DNA from: Rapana venosa
Taxonomy: Eukaryota; Mollusca; Gastropoda; Neogastropoda; Muricidae
Assembly: GCA_028751875.1 (NCBI GenBank)
Contig: CM054158.1
Span: 9,356,802 to 9,420,801, forward strand
Length of the DNA: 64,000 bases
Reading direction: 5' to 3'
The translations under genes were made by a program, and so were the position numbers. The notes below the pieces were generated by a model. That model saw only the letters and a program-made list of their open reading frames with translations. It was not told the origin of the DNA and ran no database searches. Of this stretch, positions 5,875-57,736 are shown one piece after another; position 1 is the first letter of the stretch, and the number at the start of each line of letters is the position of its first letter.

Positions 5875-8735
5875 AACATCAGGGTAGTGTGGAAAGTGGC
5901 AGATGTTATATATGTACATTCGTTGTGAATGGAAATACTGCAGGTATGTGGAGAGGTAGATGTTATACATGTGTTATTGGAAATGCTGGCAGATTATATG
6001 ATGTACATGTATGTGAGTGGAAATGCTGGCAGACATGAATGCATGTATATGTTTTGGACATGGAAATGCTGGCAGACATGTATATGATATGTATCATCGT
6101 GGTGATGTGGAAATGCTGGCAGACATGTATATGATATGTATCATCGTGGTGATGTGGAAATGCTGGCAGACATGTATATGATATGTATCATCGTTGTGAT
6201 GTGGAAATGCTGGCAGACATGTATATGATATGTATCATCGTGGTGATGTGGAAATGCTGGCAGACATGTATATGATATGTATCATCGTTGTGATGTGGAA
6301 ATGCTGGCAGACATGTATATGATATGTATCATCGTGGTGATGTGGAAATGCTGGCAGACATGTATATGATATGTATCATCGTGGTGATGTGGAAATGCTG
6401 GCAGACATGTATATGATATGTATCATCGTGGTGATGTGGAAATGCTGGCAGACATGTATATGTATTTCATCGTGTTGTGATGTGGAAATGCTGGCAGACA
6501 TGTATATGATATGTATCATCGTGGTGATGTGGAAATGCTGGCAGACATGTATATGATATGTATCATCGTTGTGATGTGGAAATGCTGGCAGACATGTATA
6601 TGATATGTATCATCGTGGTGATGTGGAAATGCTGGCAGACATGTATATGCTATGTATCATCGTGGTGATGTGGAAATGCTGGCAGACATGTATATGATAT
6701 GTATCATCGTGGTGATGTGGAAATGCTGGCAGACATGTATATGATATGTATCATCGTGGTGATGTGGAAATGCTGGCAGACATGTATATGATATGTATCA
6801 TCGTGGTGATGTGGAAATGCTGGCAGACATGTATATGTAGTATCATCGTGGTGATGTGGAAATGCTGGCAGACATGTATATGATATGTATCATCGTGGTG
6901 ATGTGGAAATGCTGGCAGACATGTATATGCTATGTATCATCGTGGTGATGTGGAAATGCTGGCAGACATGTATATGATATGTATCATCGTTGTGATGTGG
7001 AAATGCTGGCAGACATGTATATGATATGTATCATCGTGGTGATGTGGAAATGCTGGCAGACATGTATATGATATGTATCATCGTGGTGATGTGGAAATGC
7101 TGGCAGACATGTATATGCTATGTATCATCGTGGTGATGTGGAAATGCTGGCAGACATGTATATGATATGTATCATCGTGGTGATGTGGAAATGCTGGCAG
7201 ACATGTATATGATATGTATCATCGTGGTGATGTGGAAATGCTGGCAGACATGTATATGATATGTATCATCGTGGTGATGTGGAAATGCTGGCAGACATGT
7301 ATATGCTATGTATCATCGTGGTGATGTGGAAATGCTGGCAGACATGTATATGCTATGTATCATCGTGGTGATGTGGAAATGCTGGCAGACATGTATATGC
7401 TATGTATCATCGTGGTGATGTGGAAATGCTGGCAGACATGTATATGATATGTATCATCGTGGTGATGTGGAAATGCTGGCAGACATGTATATGCTATGTA
7501 TCATCGTGGTGATGTGGAAATGCTGGCAGACATGTATATGATATGTATCATCGTGGTGATGTGGAAATGCTGGCAGACATGTATATGATATGTATCATCG
7601 TGGTGATGTGGAAATGCTGGCAGACATGTATATGCTATGTATCATCGTGTGATGTGGAAATGCTGGCAGACATGTATATGATATGTATCATCGTGGTGAT
7701 TGGAAATGCTGGCAGACATGTATATGATATGTATCATCGTGTGATGTGGAAATGCTGGCAGACATGTATATGATATGTATCATCGTGGTGATGTGGAAAT
7801 GCTGGCAGACATGTATATGATATGTATCATCGTGTGATGTGGAAATGCTGGCAGACATGTATATGATATGTATCATCGTTGTGATGTGGAAATGCTGGCA
7901 GACATGTATATGCTATGTATCATCGTGGTGATGTGGAAATGCTGGCAGACATGTATATGATATGTATCATCGTGGTGATGTGGAAATGCTGGCAGACATG
8001 TATATGATATGTATCATCGTGGTGATGTGGAAATGCTGGCAGACATGTATATGCTATGTATCATCGTTGTGATGTGGAAATGCTGGCAGACATGTATATG
8101 ATATGTATCATCGTGGTGATGTGGAAATGCTGGCAGACATGTATATGATATGTATCATCGTGGTGATGTGGAAATGCTGGCAGACATGTATATGATATGT
8201 ATCATCGTGGTGATGTGGAAATGCTGGCAGACATGTATATGATATGTATCATCGTTGTGATGTGGAAATGCTGGCAGACATGTATATGATATGTATCATC
8301 GTGGTGATGTGGAAATGCTGGCAGACATGTATATGATAAGTATCATCGTTGTGATGTGGAAATGCTGGCAGACATGTATATGATATGTATCATCGTGGTG
8401 ATGTGGAAATGCTGGCAGACATGTATATGATAAGTATCATCGTTGTGATGTGGAAATGCTGGCAGACATGTATATGATATGTATCATCGTTGTGATGTGG
8501 AAATGCTGGCAGACATGTATATGATATGTATCATCGTGGTGATGTGGAAATGCTGGCAGACATGTATATGATAGTATCACGTGTGATGTGGAAAGCTGCG
8601 ACATGTATATGATTGTATCATCGTTGTGTGGAAATGCTGGGAGACACTTATGGATGTATCATCGTGGTGATGGCAAATTTCTGGCAAGTCTGTATATGTT
8701 GTTCATCGTTGTGATTGGAAATCTATATATACAAC
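5875..8735. repeat. 47-bp minisatellite array, 2.8 kb
   Basis: Roughly 55-60 head-to-tail units of 47 bp with core GTGATGTGGAAATGCTGGC followed by AGACATGTATATG. The middle is almost perfectly homogeneous. A few variants (GTTGTGATG, ATGCTATG, ATAAGTATC) recur in higher-order patterns, while both ends decay sharply (5875-6060 and 8560-8735). It lies where the central GTF2H1 exons should be. Confidence 0.97.
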
Positions 8736-23805: not shown

Positions 23806-25188
23806 ACTCACTCACTCAGTCCCATGTCCCAAAGGACGTAGGGGGGACATGAGAGAAGATGCAACAGAGATCTTTTTCCATGCTTCACGATCCTGTGTGG
23901 CTAGTAGAAGGTGTTGCAGGGGTTGGGCGGTCCAGTCTTTGATGTTGTCAACCCATGATTTCTTTTGGCGGCCTCTTCTTCTCTTGCCTTCGACTGTTCC
24001 TTGCAAGATGGTTTTTGCTAAGGTGTTGTGTCTTGTGGTGTGACCAAACCACATCAGTTTTCTCCTCTTTATGGTGGAGAGCAGAGAGGTTCTTGGGGGC
24101 CCACACGCTTTTTGATTTCTTCTTTCACATAGTTGTTGGTCTTGTGTTCTTTGTATGATATTTTGAGGAGTCTTCTGTGGCACTTGTTTCCAAATGCTTG
24201 GATTCTCCTCTCTAGCTCTGCTGACAGAGTCCATGAATCACAGCCATATAGGAGGATAGATATCACGAGGATTTGTAGAGGTGATATTTGGTGCAGAAGC
24301 TGATGTTGCTTCTGATGATCCTCTCTCGAGTCTGGCTAGAGCAGATGTTGCTGTTGCAATGCGAGCTTTCACTTCATTGTTTGATGTGCCATCTTTTGTT
24401 AGGATGGAGCCTAAGTATTTGAATTGGCTCACCTCTTCCAGTATTTCTCCAATTATCTTTATTTCCGTGCTGTCATTACTTGCACTGTTGACCATGATCT
24501 TTGATTTCTCTGTACTGACCTCATGCCGTATGCGCTCGCTCTATCTGATAGACTATCTGAGAGTTTTGCAGTTCTTGTTTGCTGCCGCCCATGAGGTCAA
24601 TGTCATCTGCAAATCTGAGGTTGCAAAGGGGTCTTCCACCAATGGAGATGGAAGTGTGGTGGTTTTGCAACGTCTCTGTCATGATGTTTTCGAGGAAGAG
24701 GTTGAAGAGTACAGGTGAGAGAAGGCAGCCCCGACAGACCCCAACCGTGGTCTTGAAGAACTCGCCCATATGATTGTTCATAAAAACTGCACTTCTTGCA
24801 TTCTCGTACAGTGCCTTGATGACTTCAATGAGGCAGTTGTCAATGTTGAAGTGCCTGAGGCCGTCATGCCATACCCTGTCAAAGGCCTTTTTGAAGTCTA
24901 TGTAATTGTGATACAAGTCTTTTTGGTGTTGGAGATGTTTCTCTATCAGAATTCTCAGATTGAAAATTTGTTCCATTGTGCTGCGTTTTGGTCTAAAGCC
25001 AGCTTGTTCTTCTGCCAGGAGTTTTTCCGCTTGGTTTTTCAGTCTGTTGAGGACTACCTGCAGCATGATCTTGCTAGGATGGCTTATGAGACTGATGGTT
25101 CTGTAGTTCTGGCATTGCTTGAGGTTTCCTTTCTTTGGTAGGGGTATTACAAGAGACTGTGTCCATTCTTCTGGCCATTCTGCGTCCT
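23806..25188 (-). mobile_element. 5'-truncated RTE-like LINE, dead copy
   Basis: On the - strand it encodes, in order, EWTQSLVIPLPKKGNL, AEEQAGFRPKRST, DFKKAFDRVWHDGL, VGVCRGCLLSPVLFN, NLRFADDIDLMGGS (catalytic ADD), FKYLGSILTKDGTS, SILLYGCDSWTLS and RRRGRQKKSWVDNIKDW. This is a reverse-transcriptase palm/thumb and C-terminus as in RTE-type endonuclease-reverse-transcriptase elements. Several frame changes split it, and the usual GVRQG motif is altered to GVCRG. The 3' end carries TGAGTGAGTGAGTGA, consistent with the short tandem tails of RTE elements. The 5' end stops abruptly at the 25189-25915 array. It sits in a PAXIP1 intron, same orientation. Confidence 0.88.
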
Positions 25189-26085: not shown

Positions 26086-26865
26086 GTGTCTGGGTGAATT
26101 GTGGAGAGGAAAAAAAATCAACAACAGAAATCACGTCTGGGTGAATTGTGGAGAGGAAAAAAATCAACAACAGAAATCACGTCTGGGTGAATTGTGGAGA
26201 GGAAAAAAATCAACAACAGAGATTATGTCTGGGTGAATTGTGGAGAGGAAAAAAATCAACAACAGAAATCACGTCTGGGTGAATTGTGGAGAGGAAAAAA
26301 ATCAACAACAGAAATCACGTCTGGGTGAATTGTGGAGAGGAAAAAAATCAACAACAGAGATTATGTCTGGGTGAATTGTGGAGAGGAAAAAAATCAACAA
26401 CAGAAATCACGTCTGGGTGAATTGTGGAGAGGGAAAAAAATCAACAACAGAAATCACGTCTGGGTGAATTGTGGAGAGGAAAAAACATCAACAACAGAGA
26501 TTATGTCTGGGTGAATTGTGGAGAGGAAAAAAAAACATCAACAACAGAAATCACGCTGGGTGAATTGTGGAGAGGCAAAAAAAATCAACAACAGAAATTA
26601 TGTCTGGGTGAATTGTGGAGAGGCAAAAAACATCAACAACAGAAATCACGTCTGGGTGAATTGTGGGGAGGAAAAAAATCAACAACAGAAATCACGTCTG
26701 GGTGAATCGTGGAGAGGAAAAAAAAATCAACAACAGAAATCACGTCTGGGTGAATTGTGGAGAGGAAAAAAAAAATCAACAACAGAAATCACGTCTGGGT
26801 GAATTGTGAGGAGAAAAAAACACATCAACAACAGAAATCACGTCTGGGTGAATTGTGGGGAGAAA
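26086..26865. repeat. 46-bp minisatellite upstream of PAXIP1 exon 18 acceptor
   Basis: 17 units with core TCTGGGTGAATTGTGGAGAG, an A6-A9 run and TCAACAACAGAAATCACG. On the PAXIP1 strand each unit reads pyrimidine tract, CTCTCCACAATTCACCCAG, i.e. a 3' splice-site-like motif. The first unit ends about 17 nt from the true acceptor. Confidence 0.95.
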
Positions 26866-27222
26866 GCATGACTGACAACAGAAATCAAACAAATCATCCC
26901 AAACAATCAATCCATGACAAAATCATTCTCTCTGATAGTTATACAGTAGCTGAAAGATCTAAGTGAAAATTTGATTTACGATGGAGAGACATACCTTGCT
27001 AAAGGCAAACATTTCATTCCCTCAAGCAAAACAAAATAATATCAGAAAAAACTGCACCATTCATTATCTGTAAAGTTACGCAGTAGCCACACAGTTGCTG
27101 AGAATTTCTTTGTTCTGTTAGGTGCAAACTTTGGCCCAAGTCTGACATTCTTGCACAGCAAAATTCAGACCATTTTTGGCGGGGTGAAAGGAGGAGGGGG
27201 GTTGTAATGAATAGACTGTTAC

Positions 27223-27314
27223 CTGAAAATGTGCAGTCTTGCTTTGCGTAAACTCCTGGAGATTGCAGCCCACCCCCTCTCCGCTGCTCGTCCCTCAACG
27301 TACTTCTCCTCCAT
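27223..27314 (-). CDS. PAXIP1: PAXIP1 exon 17 (BRCT5-BRCT6), frame-disrupted
   Basis: 92 nt between acceptor GTGCAATGCAG and donor GTAACA. The length fits the phases of exons 16 and 18. The expected frame is interrupted by TGA after six codons. Homology starts in another frame (EEKYVEGRAAERG, cf. DEQNYILRDAEAE) and returns to the expected one at NLQEFTQSKTAHFQ. This needs one extra base near the start and one missing base in the later G5 run. Assembly indels are the simplest explanation. Confidence 0.7.
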
Positions 27315-27369
27315 CTGCATTGCACACAACACAACCAATGGTAAAGTAAAACCGGTTCCGCTTTTCCGG

Positions 27370-29525: not shown

Positions 29526-30135
29526 TATCACACACACACACACCACCAATACCATCGTCAGAACAATCCGATAACACACACACCACCAATACCATTGTCA
29601 GAACAATCCGATAACACACCCACCACCAATACCATTGTCAGAACAATCCGATAACACACCCACCAGTGACATCATCAGAACAATCCGATAACACACCCAC
29701 CAGTGACATCATCAGAACAATCCGATAACACACCCACCAGTGACATCATCAGAACAATCCGATAACACACCCACCAGTGACATCATCAGAACAATCCGAT
29801 AACACACCCACCAGTAACATCATCAGAGCAATTCAACAACACACCCACCAGTAACATCATCAGAGCAATATGCTAACACACCCACCACTAACATCGTCAG
29901 AACAATATGCTAACACACCCACCAGCAACATCACCAGAACAATATGCTAACACACCCACCAGTGACATCATCAGAACAATATGCTAACACACCCACCAGT
30001 AACATCATCAGAACAATATGCTAACACACCCACCAGTAACATCATCAGAACAATATGCTTACACACCCATTAACAACATTGTCTAAATGATCTGATAAAA
30101 CACCTAGCAATAACATCATCACAACAATCCAATAA
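29526..30135. repeat. 37-bp minisatellite upstream of PAXIP1 exon 16 acceptor
   Basis: About 16 units of ACACCCACCAGTGACATCAT plus CAGAACAATCCGATA. The array starts within 5-10 bp of the exon 16 acceptor through a CA run. Confidence 0.94.
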
Positions 30136-30313
30136 CACATCCAACATCGTCAGAACAATGATCAAGAGCAGAGAAAGAGAAGGGGGGGTGATGGTAGGGG
30201 AGTGAAAGAAGAAACAACAACCATTCTTTTCCCTCCCCAGTTCGTCCTGACTTTTTTTGGGCGCATATTTTTCTTCCAGATAGACTGTCGGCTTCCTTTC
30301 TGACGACGGCATC

Positions 30314-37210: not shown

Positions 37211-37790
37211 CTGCACACACACACACACCACTGCTCTTTAGAATAACAGCACACACACACACACCACTGCTCTTTAGAATAACAGCACACACACACACAC
37301 CACTGCTCTTTAGAATAACAGCACACACACCACTGCTCTTTAGAATAACAGCACACACACACACACCACTGCTCTTTAGAATAACAGCACACACCACACA
37401 CTCCACTGCTCTTTAGAATAACAGCACACACACACACAAACCACTGCTCTTTAGAATAACAGCAACACACACACACTCCACTGCTCTTTAGAATAAACAC
37501 ACACACACACACCACTGCCCTCTCCATTCAATAACGGCACACACACACAACATCACTGCTCTTCAGAATAACAGCATACACACACACACACCACTGCTCT
37601 TTAGAATAACAGCATACACACACACACACCACTGCTCTTTAGAATAACAGCACACACACACCACTGCTCTTTAGAATAACAGCACACACACACACACACC
37701 ACTGCTCTTTAGAATAACAGCACACACACACACCACTGCTCTTTAGAATAACAGCACACACACACACACGCCACTGCCCTCTCCATTCAA
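37211..37790. repeat. ~36-bp minisatellite abutting PAXIP1 exon 14 acceptor
   Basis: About 16 units of CCACTGCTCTTTAGAATAAC plus AGC and a variable (CA)n. The (CA)n segment of the first unit supplies the acceptor context GTGTGTGTGCAG of exon 14. Confidence 0.95.
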
Positions 37791-42390: not shown

Positions 42391-42441
42391 AGAAGCTGCA
42401 CACACCCGTCAGTCTGTTGTGCAGACACTGGCACCACTCAC

Positions 42442-42563
42442 CTTTTGCAGATGAGGACAGAGTTGGTGCGAGTCATGTAGCCTGTGTACTTGGCGCCGAT
42501 GGCACAGATCATCTGCTTCACCCTCTTCCTCTCCTCCCCCATGAAGTTGGTGATGCTGATGAT
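42442..42563 (-). CDS. PAXIP1: PAXIP1 exon 12 (BRCT4)
   Basis: 122 nt, phase 0 in and phase 2 out, acceptor TTGTGACCAG and donor GTGAGT. It reads IISITNFMGEERKRVKQMIC then AIGAKYTGYMTRTNSVLICK, matching IISVTGF…GAKYTGYLCRSNTVLICK. Confidence 0.96.
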
Positions 42564-43414: not shown

Positions 43415-43681
43415 TCCAAAACAAAACATGTTCACAGAGAAACAAACAAACGGGGAGGTGGGGGGTGGGGGGAGTCCAAATGTATTATGGCAGTGCCCCC
43501 TGCTTAAGGAAAACACACAGTGACATTTACTGCCACCATAAATGCCATACAAATTACACTACACTTTGCAAGAAAAATATATTTCATAAAAGGCTTTGTT
43601 GTGCAACAGAACACAACCTACCCCCCCCCCTCCAACAACAACAAAGAGAAAAAAACCACCCCCCCTTACAAAGATGAGTCA

Positions 43682-44516
43682 CGAGAGACTGATCCCCCCC
43701 CCCCCCCCCCCTTACAAAGATGAGGTCAGGTAACGACAGACTGATCACCCCCCCCCCCCCCCCCCCCTACAAAGATGAGGTCAGGTAACGACAGACTGAT
43801 CATCCCCCCCCCCTACAAAGATGAGGTCAGGTAACGACAGACTGATCCCCCCCCCCCCCTACAAAGATGAGGTCAGGTAACGACAGACTGATCATCCCCC
43901 CCCCTACAAAGATGAGGTCAGGTAACGACAGACTGATCCCCCCCCCCCCCCTACAAAGATGAGGTCAGGTAACGACAGACCGATCATCCCCCCCCCCCCC
44001 CTACAAAGATGAGGTCAGGTAATGACAGACCGATCATCCCCCCCCCCCCCCCCCTACAAAGATGAGGTCAGGTAACGACAGACTGACCCCCCCCCCCCCC
44101 CCCCTACAAAGATAGGTCAGGTAACGACAGACTGATCCCCCCCCCCCCCCCTACAAAGATGAGGTCAGTAACGACAGACTGATCCCCCCCCCCCCTACAA
44201 AGATGAGGTCAGGTAACGACAGACTGATCCCCCCCCCCCCCCCCCCCCTACAAAGATGAGGTCAGTAACGACAGACTGATCCCCCCCCCCCTACAAAGAT
44301 GAGGTCAGGTAACGACAGACTGATCCCCCCCCCCCTACAAAGATGAGGTCAGGTAACGACAGACTGATCCCCCCCCCCCTACAAAGATGAGTCAGGTAAC
44401 GACAGACTGATCCCCCCCCCCCTACAAAGATGAGGTCAGGTAACGACAGACTGATCATCCCCCCCCCCCCCCCTACAAAGATGAGGTCAGGTAACGACAG
44501 ACCGATCATCCCCCCC
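43682..44516. repeat. Poly-C/poly-G minisatellite at PAXIP1 exon 11 donor
   Basis: About 18 units of TACAAAGATGAGGTCAGGTA plus ACGACAGACTGATC, each separated by a run of 9-20 C. It starts about 12 bp from the exon 11 donor. On the transcribed strand the runs are poly-G. Confidence 0.95.
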
Positions 44517-47175: not shown

Positions 47176-47267
47176 CTTGCACCAGGTGTTGACCTCCTCT
47201 GAGCCCATGGACTTCTGGTAGTCACAGATGAAGAACACACAGCCCAGCAGACACTGATCCGGGGGAA
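47176..47267 (-). CDS. PAXIP1: PAXIP1 exon 9 (BRCT3 start)
   Basis: 92 nt, acceptor TTGTTGTTGCAG and donor GTACAT. After the split Ile codon it reads PPDQCLLGCVFFICDYQKSM then GSEEVNTWCK, matching EGFLLGCVFAIADY of vertebrate BRCT3. Confidence 0.95.
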
Positions 47268-47789: not shown

Positions 47790-50700
47790 CATGAGAAGAA
47801 CAGACACCACTCACCCACTATTCATTAGGAAGAACAAACTCCACTCACTCACTGTTCATTAGGAAGAACAAACACCACTCACTCACTGTTCATTAGGAAG
47901 AACAAACACCACTCACTCACTGTTCATTAGGAAGAACAAACACCACTCACTCACTGTTCATTAGGAAGAACAGACACCACTCATTCACTGTTCATTAGGA
48001 AGAACAGACACCACTCATTCACTGTTCACTAGGAAGAACAGACACCACTCACTCACTGTTCATTAGGAAGAACAAACACCACTCACTGTTCATTAGGAAG
48101 AACAGACAGCACTCACCCACTATTCATTAGGAAGAACAGACAGCACTCACCCACTATTCATTAGGAAGAACAGACACCACTCACAGTCCATTAGGAAGAA
48201 CAGACAGCACTCACAGTTCATTAGGAAGAACAGACACCACTCACTGTTCATTAGGAAGAACAGACACCACTCACTGTTCATTAGGAAGAACAGACACCAC
48301 TCACCCACTATTCATTAGGAAGAACAAACACCACTCACTATTCATTAGGAAGAACATACACCATTCAATCACTGTTCGTTAGGAAGAACAAACACCACTC
48401 ACTGTTCATTAGGAAGAACAAACACCACTCACAGTTCATTAGGAAGAACATACACCACTCACTCACTGTTCATTAGGAAGAACAGACACCACTCACCCAT
48501 TATTCATTAGGAAGAACAGACACCACTCACTGTTCACTAGCAAGAACAGACACCACTCACTGTTCACTAGGAAGAACAAACACCTCTCACTGCTCATTAG
48601 GAAGAACAAACACCACTCACCCACTATTCATTAGGAAGAACAGACACCACTCACTCATTGTTCATTAGGAAGAACAGACACCCCTCTCACTGTTCACTAG
48701 GAAGAACAGACACCACTCGCTGTTCACTGGGAAGAATATACACCACTCACCCACTATTCATTAGGAAGAACAGACACCACCCACTGTTCATTAGGAAGAA
48801 CAGACACCATTCACTCACTGTTCATTAGGAAGAACAAACACCACTCACTGTTCATTAGGAAGAACAAACACCACTCGCTGTTCACTGGGAAGAACAGACA
48901 CCACTCGCTGTTCATTAGGAAGAACAGACACCACTCGCTGTTCATTAGGAAGAACAGACACCACTCGCTGTTCATTAGGAAGAACAAACACCACTCGCTG
49001 TTCACTGGGAAGAACATACACCACTCGCTGTTCATTAGGAAGAACAGACACCACTCGCTGTTCATTAGGAAGAACAGACACCACTCGCTGTTCATTAGGA
49101 AGAACAAACACCACTCGCTGTTCACTGGGAAGAACATACACCACTCGCTGTTCATTAGGAAGAACAGACACCACTCGCTGTTCATTAGGAAGAACAGACA
49201 CCACTCGCTGTTCATTAGGAAGAACAGACACCACTCGCTGTTCATTAGGAAGAACAGACACCATTCACTCACTGTTCATTAGGAAGAACAGACACCATTC
49301 ACTCACTGTTCATTAGGAAGAACAGACACCACTCACTAGGAAGAACAGACACCATTCACTCACTGTTCATTAGGAAGAACAGACACCACTGACTCACTAG
49401 GAAGAACAGACACCACTGACTCACTAGGAAGAACAGACACCACTGACTCACTGTTCACTAGGAAGAACAGACACCACTGACTCACTGTTCACTAGGAAGA
49501 ACAGACACCACTCACTCACTAGGAAGAACAGACGCCACTCACTCACTGCTCACTAGGAAGAACAGACGCCACTTACTGCTCACTAGGAAGAACAGACACC
49601 ACTTACTGCTCACTAGGAAGAACAGACACCAATCACAAGGAAGAACAGACACCACTTACTGCCCACTAGGAAGAACAGACACCACTTACTGCCCACTGGG
49701 AAGAACAGACACCACTTACTGCCCACTGGGAAGAACAGACACCACTCACTGGGAAGAACAGACACCACTCACTGGGAAGAACAGACACCACTCACTGGGA
49801 AGAACAGACATCCCTTACTGCTCACTAGGGAGAACAGACACCACTCACTAGGGAGAACAGACATCCCTTACTGCTCACTAGGGAGAACAGACACCACTCA
49901 CTAGGAAGAACAGACAACCCTTACTGCTCACTAGGGAGAACAGACACCACTCACTAGGGAGAACAGACACCACCCACTGGGAAGAACAGACACCACTCAC
50001 TGGGAAGAACAGACACCACTCACTGGGAAGAACAGACATCCCTTACTGCTCACTAGGGAGAACAGACATCCCTTACTGCTCACTAGGGAGAACAGACACC
50101 ACTCACCAGGAAGAACAGACATCCCTTACTGCTCACTGGGAAGAACAGACCACTCACTAGGAAGAACAGACACCACTCACCAGGAAGAACAGACAACCCT
50201 TACTGCTCACTAGGGAGAACAGACACCACTCACTAGGGAGAACAGACACCACCCACTGGGAAGAACAGACACCACTCACTGGGAAGAACAGACACCACTC
50301 GCCAGGAAGAACAGACACCACTCACCAGGAAGAACAGACACCACTCACTGCTCACTAGGGAGAACAGACACCACTCACTGGGGAGAACAGACACCACTCA
50401 CTAGGGAGAAGACACGACTCACTAGGAAGAACAGACACCACTCACCAGGAAGAACAGACAACCCTTACTGCTCACTAGGGAGAACAGACACCACTCACTA
50501 GGGAGAACAGACACCACTCACTAGGGAGAACAGACACCACTCACTAGGGAGAACAGACACCACTCACTAGGGAGAACAGACACCACTCACTGGGGAGAAC
50601 AGACACCACTCACTGGGAAGAACAGACACCACTCACTGCTCACTAGGAAGAACAGACACCACTCACTGGGAAGAACAGACACCACTCACTGGGAAGAACA

Positions 50701-50976
50701 GACACCACTCACCGGGAAGAACAGACACCACTCGCCAGGAAGAACAGACACCACTCACCAGGAAGAACAGACACCACTCACCGCTCACTAGGGAGAACAG
50801 ACACCACTCACTGGGAAGAACATGCACCACTCACCCACCAGGAAGAACAGACACCACTCACTCACCAGGAAGAACAGACACCACTCACTCACCAGGAAGA
50901 ACAGACACCACCCATTCACTGTTCACTAGGAAGAACAGACACCACTCACTCACCAGGAAGAACAGACACCACTTAC
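47790..50976. repeat. ~30-bp minisatellite carrying PAXIP1 exon 8 donor
   Basis: About 100 units, 3.2 kb, with core AGGAAGAACAGACACCACTC and a variable TCACTGTTCATT segment. On the PAXIP1 strand units read GTGAGTGGTGTCTGTTCTTC or GTAAGTGGTGTCTGTTCTTC. The real exon 8 donor GTAAGTGGTGTCTG is the first unit. Units identical to the donor plus upstream GCA recur at about 49570-49740. Unit type drifts along the array (TTCATTAGG left, CTCACTAGG/CTGGG right). Confidence 0.96.
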
Positions 50977-51139
50977 TGCTTTCTGATGCTTCGTGCCCAA
51001 AGTAGTCACACGGGGGAGGAGGGGGAGGCTGGTGAGGTGGGGGCAGGGCAGGTTGCTGTGTACCCGGGGACTGTGCCGGGTATGGGTATGCAGGGGGTGG
51101 GGGTCGCGCCTGGCCACCCAGACCCAGCATCTGGTTGAT
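50977..51139 (-). CDS. PAXIP1: PAXIP1 exon 8 (Pro-rich, YFGHE motif)
   Basis: 163 nt, phase 0 in and phase 1 out, acceptor GATATTTTCAG and donor GTAAGT. It reads INQMLGLGGQARPPPP and ends CDYFGHEASES, matching the LFGHDPAVE segment just before BRCT3 in vertebrates. The donor is embedded in the first unit of the 3.2-kb array at 47790-50976. Confidence 0.92.
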
Positions 51140-51676: not shown

Positions 51677-52317
51677 CTTGACGGGAGGTGAGGGTCGCGG
51701 GGCAGGAGGGCTGGTGCCGTTGTTGGTGATGTTCCTCAGCGTGCGCAGACCACCGCTCTCCTCCCCCCCCCTGCCCCCCACCCCCCCCTCCAGCCCGCCG
51801 CCCAAGCAAGGAGGGACCTGAGGTGGGAGGTGAGGGGGAGGGGCGGCTGGGGAGGGACGAGGGTGGCCTTTGGCCTGTCGCTTCTTGGCCTGTGGGGGCG
51901 GCGGCTGTGGTTGCTGTTGTGGGGGTGGGGGTGGAGGTTGCTGTTGTTGTTGCTGTTGTTGTTGTTGTTGTTGTTGTTGCTGCAGGTGTTGCAGGTGCTG
52001 TTGCATCTGTTGCTGATGGTGAAGTTGCTGCAGCTGCTGTTGTTTTAACTGCTGTTGGTGGTGTAGCTGTTGTTGCTGCTGCTGATGCTGCAGCTGCTGC
52101 TGTTGCTGTTGTTGTTGCAATTGTGGTGGTTGATGCTGCAACTGCTGTTGCAACTGTGGCTGTTGCTGTAACTGTTGCTGTTGTTGCAACTGCAACTGCT
52201 GCTGCTGCTGCAACTGCAGTTGCATTTGCTGGTGCATATGCTGTTGCATCTGCTGCAGGTGTTGTTGTTGTTGTTGTTGCATTTGGTGGGGGTGTTGGTG
52301 GGGTGGATGAGGAAACC
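51677..52317 (-). CDS. PAXIP1: PAXIP1 exon 7 (Gln-rich tract plus LRNITNN motif)
   Basis: 641 nt, phase 1 in and phase 0 out, acceptor CTGTTTCAG and donor GTCAGT. It opens GFPHPPHQHPHQMQQ and runs through about 110 residues of interrupted polyglutamine (mixed CAA/CAG codons with His, Leu, Met), then Pro-rich sequence and LRTLRNITNN. The latter is a conserved PTIP motif that in human PTIP lies before the Gln-rich region. The frame is fully open. Confidence 0.92.
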
Positions 52318-54656: not shown

Positions 54657-55536
54657 CTGGCGGGAAAGGAGGTTGAGGATGCGGGGGAGGGTGGTGAGGA
54701 CCCATTCCTGCCCCAGGCATGGGCATGTGCATGGAACTGGGCACTGGAGGCACACCCATCCCTCCTCCTGCTCCTCACCGCTGCTGGGCATCCCTCCTGC
54801 TGCACTGGCTGGGCATCCCTCCTGCTGCACTGGTGGGCATCCCTCCTCCTGCACTAGCGGTGGTCATGGTGGTCCTCACCGGGGCAGGGTGGGGTGCAGA
54901 GGCAGGAAGCGTCCCCATTCCTGGGTGGGGTACACCCGCACTGCTCAGCGCCTGCTGGGGGGCCGCTGCTCCGGGATGAACCACACCCATACTGGTATGA
55001 GGCATACCAGGCTGACCTGGGGGCATACCAGGCTGACCTGGGGCCATACCAGGCTGACCTGGGGGCATACCAGGCTGGCCTGGGGGCATACCAGGCTGAC
55101 CTGGGGGCATACCAGGCTGGCCTGGGGGCATACCAGGCTGGCCTGGGGCCATACCAGGCTGACCTGGGGGCATACCAGGCTGGCCTGGGGGCATACCAGG
55201 CTGACCTGGCGGCCATACCAGGCTGACCTGGCGGCATACCAGGCTGACCTGGGGGCATACCAGGCTGGCCTGGGGCCATACCACCAGGACCCAAACTGGC
55301 ATGACCTGGACCTGAGGCCGGCATACCCATGTTGGCTGACATTGCAGGCAGACCAGCAGACATGGGCCCGCTCTGAGACCCTGGGGACACCGCGCGTGGG
55401 CCCTGGGTCATGATGGGGGACAACCCCGAGCGTGGAACAGGCATTTCTGGAATGTCCGACTTGCCGCTGGCATGCAGCCTGTGACTGACCATGCGTGCCA
55501 GAGCCTCTTTGGCGCTGGGTGTCCCTGGTCGACTCC
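54657..55536 (-). CDS. PAXIP1: PAXIP1 exon 6 (Gly/Pro/Met repeat linker), with indels
   Basis: 880 nt from acceptor TTCTTGCAG to donor GTATGC. It starts SRPGTPSAKEALARMVSHRL, then a 21-bp coding minisatellite (about 13 units of GQPGMPP/GQPGMAP), then a Gly/Met/Pro-rich part ending PPPHPQPPFPP. Expected length is a multiple of 3; the observed length is one base over. An extra G in a unit near 55205-55215 moves the frame. A further +1/-1 pair near 54805 and 54778 creates a local stop. N- and C-terminal parts are each open and join neighbours in phase. Assembly error or a damaged allele are both possible. Confidence 0.8.
54980..55285 (-). repeat. 21-bp coding minisatellite in PAXIP1 exon 6
   Basis: About 13-14 units of 21 bp, + strand GGCTGACCTGGGGGCATACC plus A, encoding the heptapeptide GQPGMPP or GQPGMAP. 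Units alternate GGGGGCAT/GGGGCCAT and GACC/GGCC. One unit near 55205 has 22 bp and breaks the frame. Confidence 0.95.
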
Positions 55537-57099: not shown

Positions 57100-57736
57100 C
57101 TGCCACAGGGGAGACCCAGCATGACACAAGGGGAACCCAGCATGACACAAGGAGAGACCACAGCATGACACAGGGAAGAGACCACAGCATGACACAAGGA
57201 GAGACCACAGCATGACACAAGGGGAGACCACAGCATGACACAAGGGAGAGACCACAGCATGACACAAGGGGAGACCACAGCATGACACAAGGGAGAGACC
57301 ACAGCATGACACAAGGAGAGAGACCACAGCATGACACAAGGGAGAGAGACCACAGCATGACACAAGGGAGAGACCACAGCATGACACAAGGAGAGAGACC
57401 ACAGCATGACACAAGGGGAAGACCAGCATGACCAAGGGAGAGACCACAGCATGACACAAGGGGAGAGAGACCACAGCATGACACAAGGGGAGAGAGACCA
57501 CAGCATGACACAAGGGAGAGAGACCACAGCATGACACAAGGGGAGAGAGACCACAGCATGACACAAGGGAGAGACCACAGCATGACACAAGGGGAGAGAC
57601 CACAGCATGACACAAGGGGAGAGAGACCATAGCATGACACAAGGGGAGACCCACAGATGACACAAGGAGAGACCCAGCATGACACAAGGGAGAGACCACA
57701 GCATGACACAAGGGGAGACCACAGCATGACACAAGG
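57100..57736. repeat. ~24-bp minisatellite abutting PAXIP1 exon 5 acceptor
   Basis: About 25 units of GACCACAGCATGACACAAGG plus GAGA. On the sense strand they read CTCCCTTGTGTCATGCTGTGG. The acceptor CTCCCCTGTGGCAG resembles a unit with the middle removed. Confidence 0.95.

Follow-up and report, generated by a model that had tools for sequence, protein, structure and literature searches.

The 5' splice site of one exon of PAXIP1 lies in the first unit of a tandem array of 111 short units, which occupies the donor side of the intron that follows. We consider it probable, at roughly 70%, that this array is a minisatellite built up by tandem copying of the gene's own exon-intron junction, and that it is an extreme instance of what has been called a 'mirage'. 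Five observations support this reading: the edge of the array lies at the donor, a 17-mer across the junction is private to the locus, neighboring units are the most alike, GTRAGT words are in excess, and junction duplication occurs elsewhere in the same genome. Four observations count against it: the unit matches its exon exactly in just four bases, the copies carrying GCAGTAAGTGG lie about 1.2 kb from the donor, the positional bias of arrays in other genes is uneven between sets, and some of the arrays concerned are of low complexity.

An array of this kind would begin when a short segment was duplicated that held the donor, a few bases from the end of the exon, and about 20 bases of intron. 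Slippage or unequal exchange would then multiply this segment. The gene would tolerate the copies, since the exon still ends in frame at the outermost donor and the remaining array is removed as intron. Most of the extra donors would act as decoys, and splicing at them would cause a frameshift or a premature stop; selective constraint would fall on unit 1 only.

The PAXIP1 gene and the array at its donor

A peptide from the window (the whole stretch of 64,000 nucleotides analyzed here) matches PAX-interacting protein 1 in PDB (3sqd, E 3.8e-14). Seventeen PAXIP1 exons can be placed in the window, all on the minus strand, and the best homolog of the assembled protein is the Nucella lapillus protein P0001 (74% identity over the part searched), which makes a caenogastropod snail the most likely source of the genome. 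When the Nucella protein is compared with the genome by tblastn, it returns the PAXIP1 exons in identical order, together with a start exon outside the window. Exon E_f and the eight further exons through E_n splice into an open frame of 395 codons with no stop, and this frame agrees with the Nucella protein.

Exon E_f (50977-51139, minus strand) is entered in phase 0 and left in phase 1, its acceptor and donor are phase-consistent, and it matches P0001. The next exon, E_g (47176-47267, minus strand), is placed by the spliced frame and by its own match to the Nucella protein. The intron between them is 3709 bp long, and the array fills its donor side. The original prediction had labeled the array-side exon 'exon 8'; since E_f is at least the ninth exon located, the label is not borne out.

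At two spots the gene is out of step with this model. Coding exon E_d (54657-55536) has a frame change: it contains 21-bp and 24-25-bp tandem repeats, and the shift of frame inside the exon reflects either an assembly indel or a real change. Between E_n and E_p a small exon is expected that is broken or misplaced; it seemingly lies at 27200-27320, where the frame departs from the Nucella protein, and the assembled protein does not include it. Exon E_e (51677-52317) includes a glutamine-rich stretch of more than 100 residues that is absent from the Nucella protein, and a minus-strand open frame within a PAXIP1 intron (24524-25186) looks reverse transcriptase-like by eye.

According to TRF, unit segmentation, and the intron map, the array extends over 47795-50978 on the minus strand. 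Cut at the common core, it yields 111 units of 21-34 bp, mainly of 23, 27, 30, or 34 bp, in good agreement with the hundred or so units first described. Exon E_f has its last base at 50977 and ends AAAGCA|GTAAGTGG; therefore the authentic 5' splice site, GCA|GTAAGTGG (50969-50979, minus strand, with GCA|GT at 50979-50975), falls inside unit 1. The exon phase verifies this placement, and the donor is indeed the first unit of the array, as had been proposed. The array spans the exon-intron boundary and repeats the donor across the exon edge, as do the mirages and the human repeat discussed below.

The 17-mer that crosses the junction, GCAGTAAGTGGTGTCTG, has five exact matches in the whole 2.28-Gb genome, all of them in the PAXIP1 array: one at the junction itself (50963-50979) and four within 49593-49722. 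These four belong to an inner block of the array, units 51-56 (49556-49728, minus strand), in which five of the six units carry the junction's GCAGTAAGTGG. Donor-identical units had first been noted at about 49570-49740. The 17-mer also bears on whether a dispersed repeat or a transposed satellite was inserted beside the donor. The window is repeat-rich, as such an origin would have it, but the exact 17-mer is absent elsewhere in the genome (by exact matching, which diverged copies would escape). We have set aside a dispersed satellite or transposon on this count, and regard an insertion as extremely improbable.

Adjacent units are identical in 20% of cases, and identity declines with the distance between units, a pattern that local copying of units would produce. 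The closest likeness to the donor is not in the nearest units: the GCAGTAAGTGG copies, in units 51-53, 55, and 56, are the distant ones mentioned above. As for exon sequence, the unit includes AGCA exactly, or about four bases, and 13 units with GTAAG match 5-7 of the last nine exon bases. Given so short an exact share, the array may also have been born just inside the intron. We therefore infer the direction of copying at PAXIP1, from exon to array, from the position of the array, its privacy to the locus, and the junction duplications at other genes. The original claim of repeated junction duplication thus stands as regards the start of the array at the donor and the occurrence of such duplication in other genes, while the direction at PAXIP1 keeps this indirect footing.

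Splice signals within the array

On its sense strand the array contains 89 GTRAGT words, whereas the antisense strand has none. In 200 dinucleotide shuffles of the array the same word occurs 18.9 times on average and 32 times at most, so that the units of the array, like those of mirages, repeat a splice signal. A comparison of this type, between units and shuffled sequence, had been named in advance as a means of disproving the idea, and it leaves the idea intact.

The units are less uniform than was first supposed. The word CAGTGAGTGGTGTCTG, said to be present in most units, occurs only 18 times in the 111-unit array and therefore is not; GTGAGTGGTGTCTG occurs 45 times. The acceptor-like word TTCTTCCTAG, with which every unit was said to end, likewise has 18 occurrences, and the looser pattern TTCTYCCYAG has 56, which leaves a weaker form of that claim. 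The donor of exon E_j (42424-42444), AAG|GTGAGTGGTGCCAGTGTCTG, resembles the array unit GTGAGTGGTGTCTG; it lies more than 5 kb from the 47795-50978 array, and the array nearest to it begins 67 bp off.

We scored the GT sites of the array with a position weight matrix (PWM) built on 62 donors of the same genome, mostly script-assigned; the scores are model values rather than measures of usage. The authentic donor scores 6.18, the 23rd percentile of the 62 donors, although percentiles are rough because the matrix uses script-assigned exon edges that favor consensus-like sites. Scoring of this kind had been suggested as a check, and it points to potential competitors: of the 566 other GT sites, 78 match or exceed the score of the authentic donor, and 18 come up to the median for the 62 donors. 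The predicted U1 duplex energy of the authentic donor is -6.7 kcal/mol, and 73 array sites are predicted to be equal or stronger. Many units are therefore good donor matches by PWM and by U1 energy, as claimed; the claim does not extend to the 26 of the 111 units that have neither GTRAGT nor GTAAGG.

The nearest stronger decoy donor, CTG|GTGAGT at 50948-50956 (minus strand), lies at +23 nt with a PWM score of 10.2, and is out of frame with a stop. The same word at 50887-50895 (minus strand, +84 nt) is in frame and stop-free, and its use would add 28 residues. Among the 88 alternative GTRAGT sites only two, at +27 and +84, would keep the frame open through the following exons, and the remaining 86 lead to a frameshift or a stop.

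It is conceivable that the array is functional: it might act as a bank of U1 sites that aids donor recognition, it might suppress premature intronic polyadenylation, or it might supply the in-frame donors at +27 and +84. A donor at the 23rd percentile, surrounded by 78 sites of equal or higher score, would suit such a role, and so would the two alternatives that keep the frame open. But 86 of the 88 alternatives are disruptive, the copies diverge along the array, and most other donor-side arrays measured are poor in donor words; we find a function of this sort highly doubtful. PAXIP1 also presents a natural test of splice-site choice, with a donor modeled as below average set against 78 sites modeled as at least its equal, the nearest stronger one 23 nt away.

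Two further roles for the units were considered and rejected. Recursive (ratchet) splice sites are not indicated, as AGGTRAGT occurs 0 times in the array. Nor are the units tandem mini-introns: they are only 21-34 bp long, and the AG and GT of AGTGAG overlap by one G rather than abut.

Arrays crowd splice sites in this genome

Tandem arrays make up 31% of the window (34 merged arrays), and PAXIP1 has 15 arrays in its 16 introns. Several arrays in the window consist of dozens of near-identical units, for example that at 5978-8722 (47 bp, 59 copies, 95% matches). With so much of the sequence in arrays, some arrays must touch exons. The array at E_f could therefore be an ordinary minisatellite that was born within the intron, grew to the exon, and was halted there by selection on the exon, its likeness to the donor meaning simply that unit 1 resembles its neighbors.

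If placement in introns were random, however, contacts with splice sites should be far fewer than we observe. Six of the 32 PAXIP1 intron ends have an array within 20 bp of the splice site, against 0.56 expected in 20,000 random placements, and ten have one within 50 bp, against 1.39 expected. Besides the array at E_f, the minus-strand arrays at 57107-57736, 37213-37777, 29536-30143, and 26088-26862 stop 7, 2, 14, and 15 bp short of the acceptors of exons E_c, E_l, E_n, and E_p, respectively, and the minus-strand array at 43659-44516 begins 11 bp past the donor of E_i.

Since PAXIP1 was picked because of the finding itself, we tested kinesin and myosin genes of the same genome. A first kinesin set comprised the 30 best-scoring exon hits, with 60 flanks of 1.5 kb, and arrays spanned or came within 50 bp of the splice site at 12 of the 60 flanks, against 2.60 expected. 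Three later sets were drawn by rank from the hit lists, passing over any hit that had internal stops or a long open frame. At 50 bp, the two kinesin sets among them gave 2/40 (0.96 expected) and 4/40 (2.14 expected), and the myosin set, with 20 flanks of 800 bp, gave 1/20 (0.29 expected). Each of the three is non-significant alone at this distance; pooled, they give 5/100 against 1.44 expected within 20 bp (p = 0.008) and 7/100 against 3.39 within 50 bp (p = 0.028).

For all kinesin and myosin flanks together, an array spans or lies within 20 bp of the splice site in 14 of 160 cases (2.84 expected) and within 50 bp in 19 of 160 (5.98 expected), with p = 5e-5 at either distance. Donors and acceptors are both affected at 50 bp, with 12/80 against 3.19 expected and 7/80 against 2.79 expected, respectively. 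Varying the TRF thresholds did not alter the result in PAXIP1 combined with the first two kinesin sets, where 19-24 of 132 were seen against 2.6-4.3 expected. These counts use script-assigned exon edges that favor consensus-like sites (one locus, L014, was corrected by hand), and some of the loci overlap or come from one gene. Thus arrays crowd splice sites in this genome, by an amount that is uncertain because it differs between sets.

Not all of these arrays are copies of a junction. Those at L024, L026, L031, and L080 are low-complexity G-rich or C-rich sequence in which no junction copy is visible. Across PAXIP1 and the first kinesin set only, GTRAG stays below 20 per kb in 20 of the 22 junction-hugging arrays; most of them, then, do not copy a donor, which is what one would expect of minisatellites born within introns. 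A tendency of arrays to be purine-rich at donors and pyrimidine-rich at acceptors fell short of significance (p = 0.095 for pyrimidines; 13 and 9 arrays). The preference for junctions might stem from more frequent small duplications there, from the seeding of repeats by low-complexity splice signals, or from longer survival of arrays beside exons.

At other loci the repeat unit itself includes the junction. For example, at L016, a kinesin family match, the exon ends GAGAGGCAGGCCAAAACAG|GTGAGC and encodes SERQAKTG, which we take to be a kinesin motif. Its intron has about 33 copies of GAGAGACAGGCCAAAACTGGT, which copies the exon tail GAGAGGCAGGCCAAAACAG|GT, with 27 GTGAG in 675 bp; because the coding part is older, the exon edge served as template. 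The acceptor at L014 is repeated together with 11 exon bases, with a period of 73 bp and in 5.8 copies, and at L036 and L013 the donor is repeated together with 47 and 28 exon bases, respectively, in about two copies each. Exon sequence is clearly within the repeat unit at all four of these loci. One further copy of the acceptor junction is found at L041, and one of the donor junction at L040.

Seven of the 160 kinesin and myosin exon ends have a near-copy of the exon edge (15/18) in the adjoining intron, where 12,640 mismatched pairs predict 0.54. The edge copy at L014 scores 14/18 and is outside this count; L082 and L076 each match in a single copy only, at 15/18, and these two matches could be something else. 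In an earlier run that included the PAXIP1 exon ends, none of these reached 15/18.

From the copies at L016, L014, L036, L013, L041, and L040, it follows that junction duplication occurs at several loci of this genome, and the whole suggests that its splice junctions have been repeatedly duplicated. An array born within the intron would account for the small exon share of the PAXIP1 unit; it would not account for the exon-derived units at L016 and L014, nor for the excess over random placement in PAXIP1 (6 against 0.56) and the other genes (14 against 2.84) within 20 bp. We consider it unlikely as the origin of the PAXIP1 array, and retain duplication of the junction as the preferred origin.

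Known junction repeats and the supply of new introns

Repeats that span exon-intron boundaries were described in amphioxus and named mirages (PMC3087553; PMC3902484). In the available text of these papers they are minisatellite-like, occur in Adh3 and globin genes with similar repeats in PGBD5, and affect donor and acceptor sides, with splicing reported as undisturbed. The resemblance to our case is close. In PAXIP1, too, the tandem units include the splice site and splice signals are repeated, and in this genome donor and acceptor sides are both affected. The unit length of 21-34 bp compares with 10-72 bp given for amphioxus Adh3. The differences are that amphioxus is a cephalochordate and the present host a mollusc; that the two haplotypes of BflGb6 have 3 and 6 units, each 150-160 bp long, against 111 here; and that, unlike the mirages, the PAXIP1 unit has only some four exon bases.

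In humans, a 31-bp VNTR of CBS is designated c.1444_1467+7(16_21) (PMC2630376). By our own reading of this name, the unit runs from 24 exon bases to intron position +7, and the 5' splice site would be repeated 16-21 times, so that a donor would be repeated as it is in PAXIP1. The CBS unit differs in being mostly exonic, and it represents one human locus with a known polymorphism.

The amphioxus mirages and the CBS VNTR are the nearest precedents. The PAXIP1 array is a mirage under the main definition, and what is new is the phylum, the copy number, and the positional bias. The open-access literature on minisatellites near splice sites or in molluscs gave no junction repeat in a mollusc among the matches listed, and likewise no hundred-copy junction repeat and no measured bias of arrays toward splice sites. 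Minisatellites in earthworm metallothionein introns (PMC12783039) and near alternative splicing in C. elegans (PMC4039745) were set aside as precedents, as the available text of these papers describes no junction copies.

The origin of new introns is a long-standing question, and one of the few concrete proposals is that they come from duplicated splice junctions. In particular, new introns have been proposed to arise by tandem duplication of segments bearing AG/GT (PMC3087553; PMC4974935). The raw event, a duplicated junction, is common to that proposal and to PAXIP1; the PAXIP1 copies differ in that they sit inside an existing intron, with no new intron position shown. Copied junctions may nonetheless supply raw material for new introns. 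Mirages have been reported, in the available text, from a handful of lancelet genes; here junction copies recur in unrelated genes of one genome, in 2 to 111 copies, so that their birth and fate can be counted.

A broader and more tentative proposal is that a caenogastropod process preferentially duplicates and amplifies junctions, donors and acceptors alike, and that minisatellites therefore arise at splice sites much more often than in other parts of introns. The resulting stock of junctions could feed the ongoing intron gain that has been reported for caenogastropod hemocyanin genes. We hold this to be possible, with the odds somewhat against it. The connection with hemocyanin could be made but is our own, the available text of the hemocyanin paper containing neither 'tandem' nor 'repeats'.

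The Nucella lapillus protein P0001 provides a lead from a second species. Exactly between E_g and E_h it has 57 extra residues, with a repeated CWGTRVYV(F)GVPGSMLLGYQGLC, and this stretch is absent from the other six mollusc proteins aligned. Its best match in the window has an E value of only 0.42, and the intron map shows no array in the window's E_g-E_h intron. Judged from the protein, the insertion is probably a junction minisatellite that gene prediction has taken as exon, which suggests that a habit of junction repeats may be common to Nucella and this genome, at sites that differ between the species.
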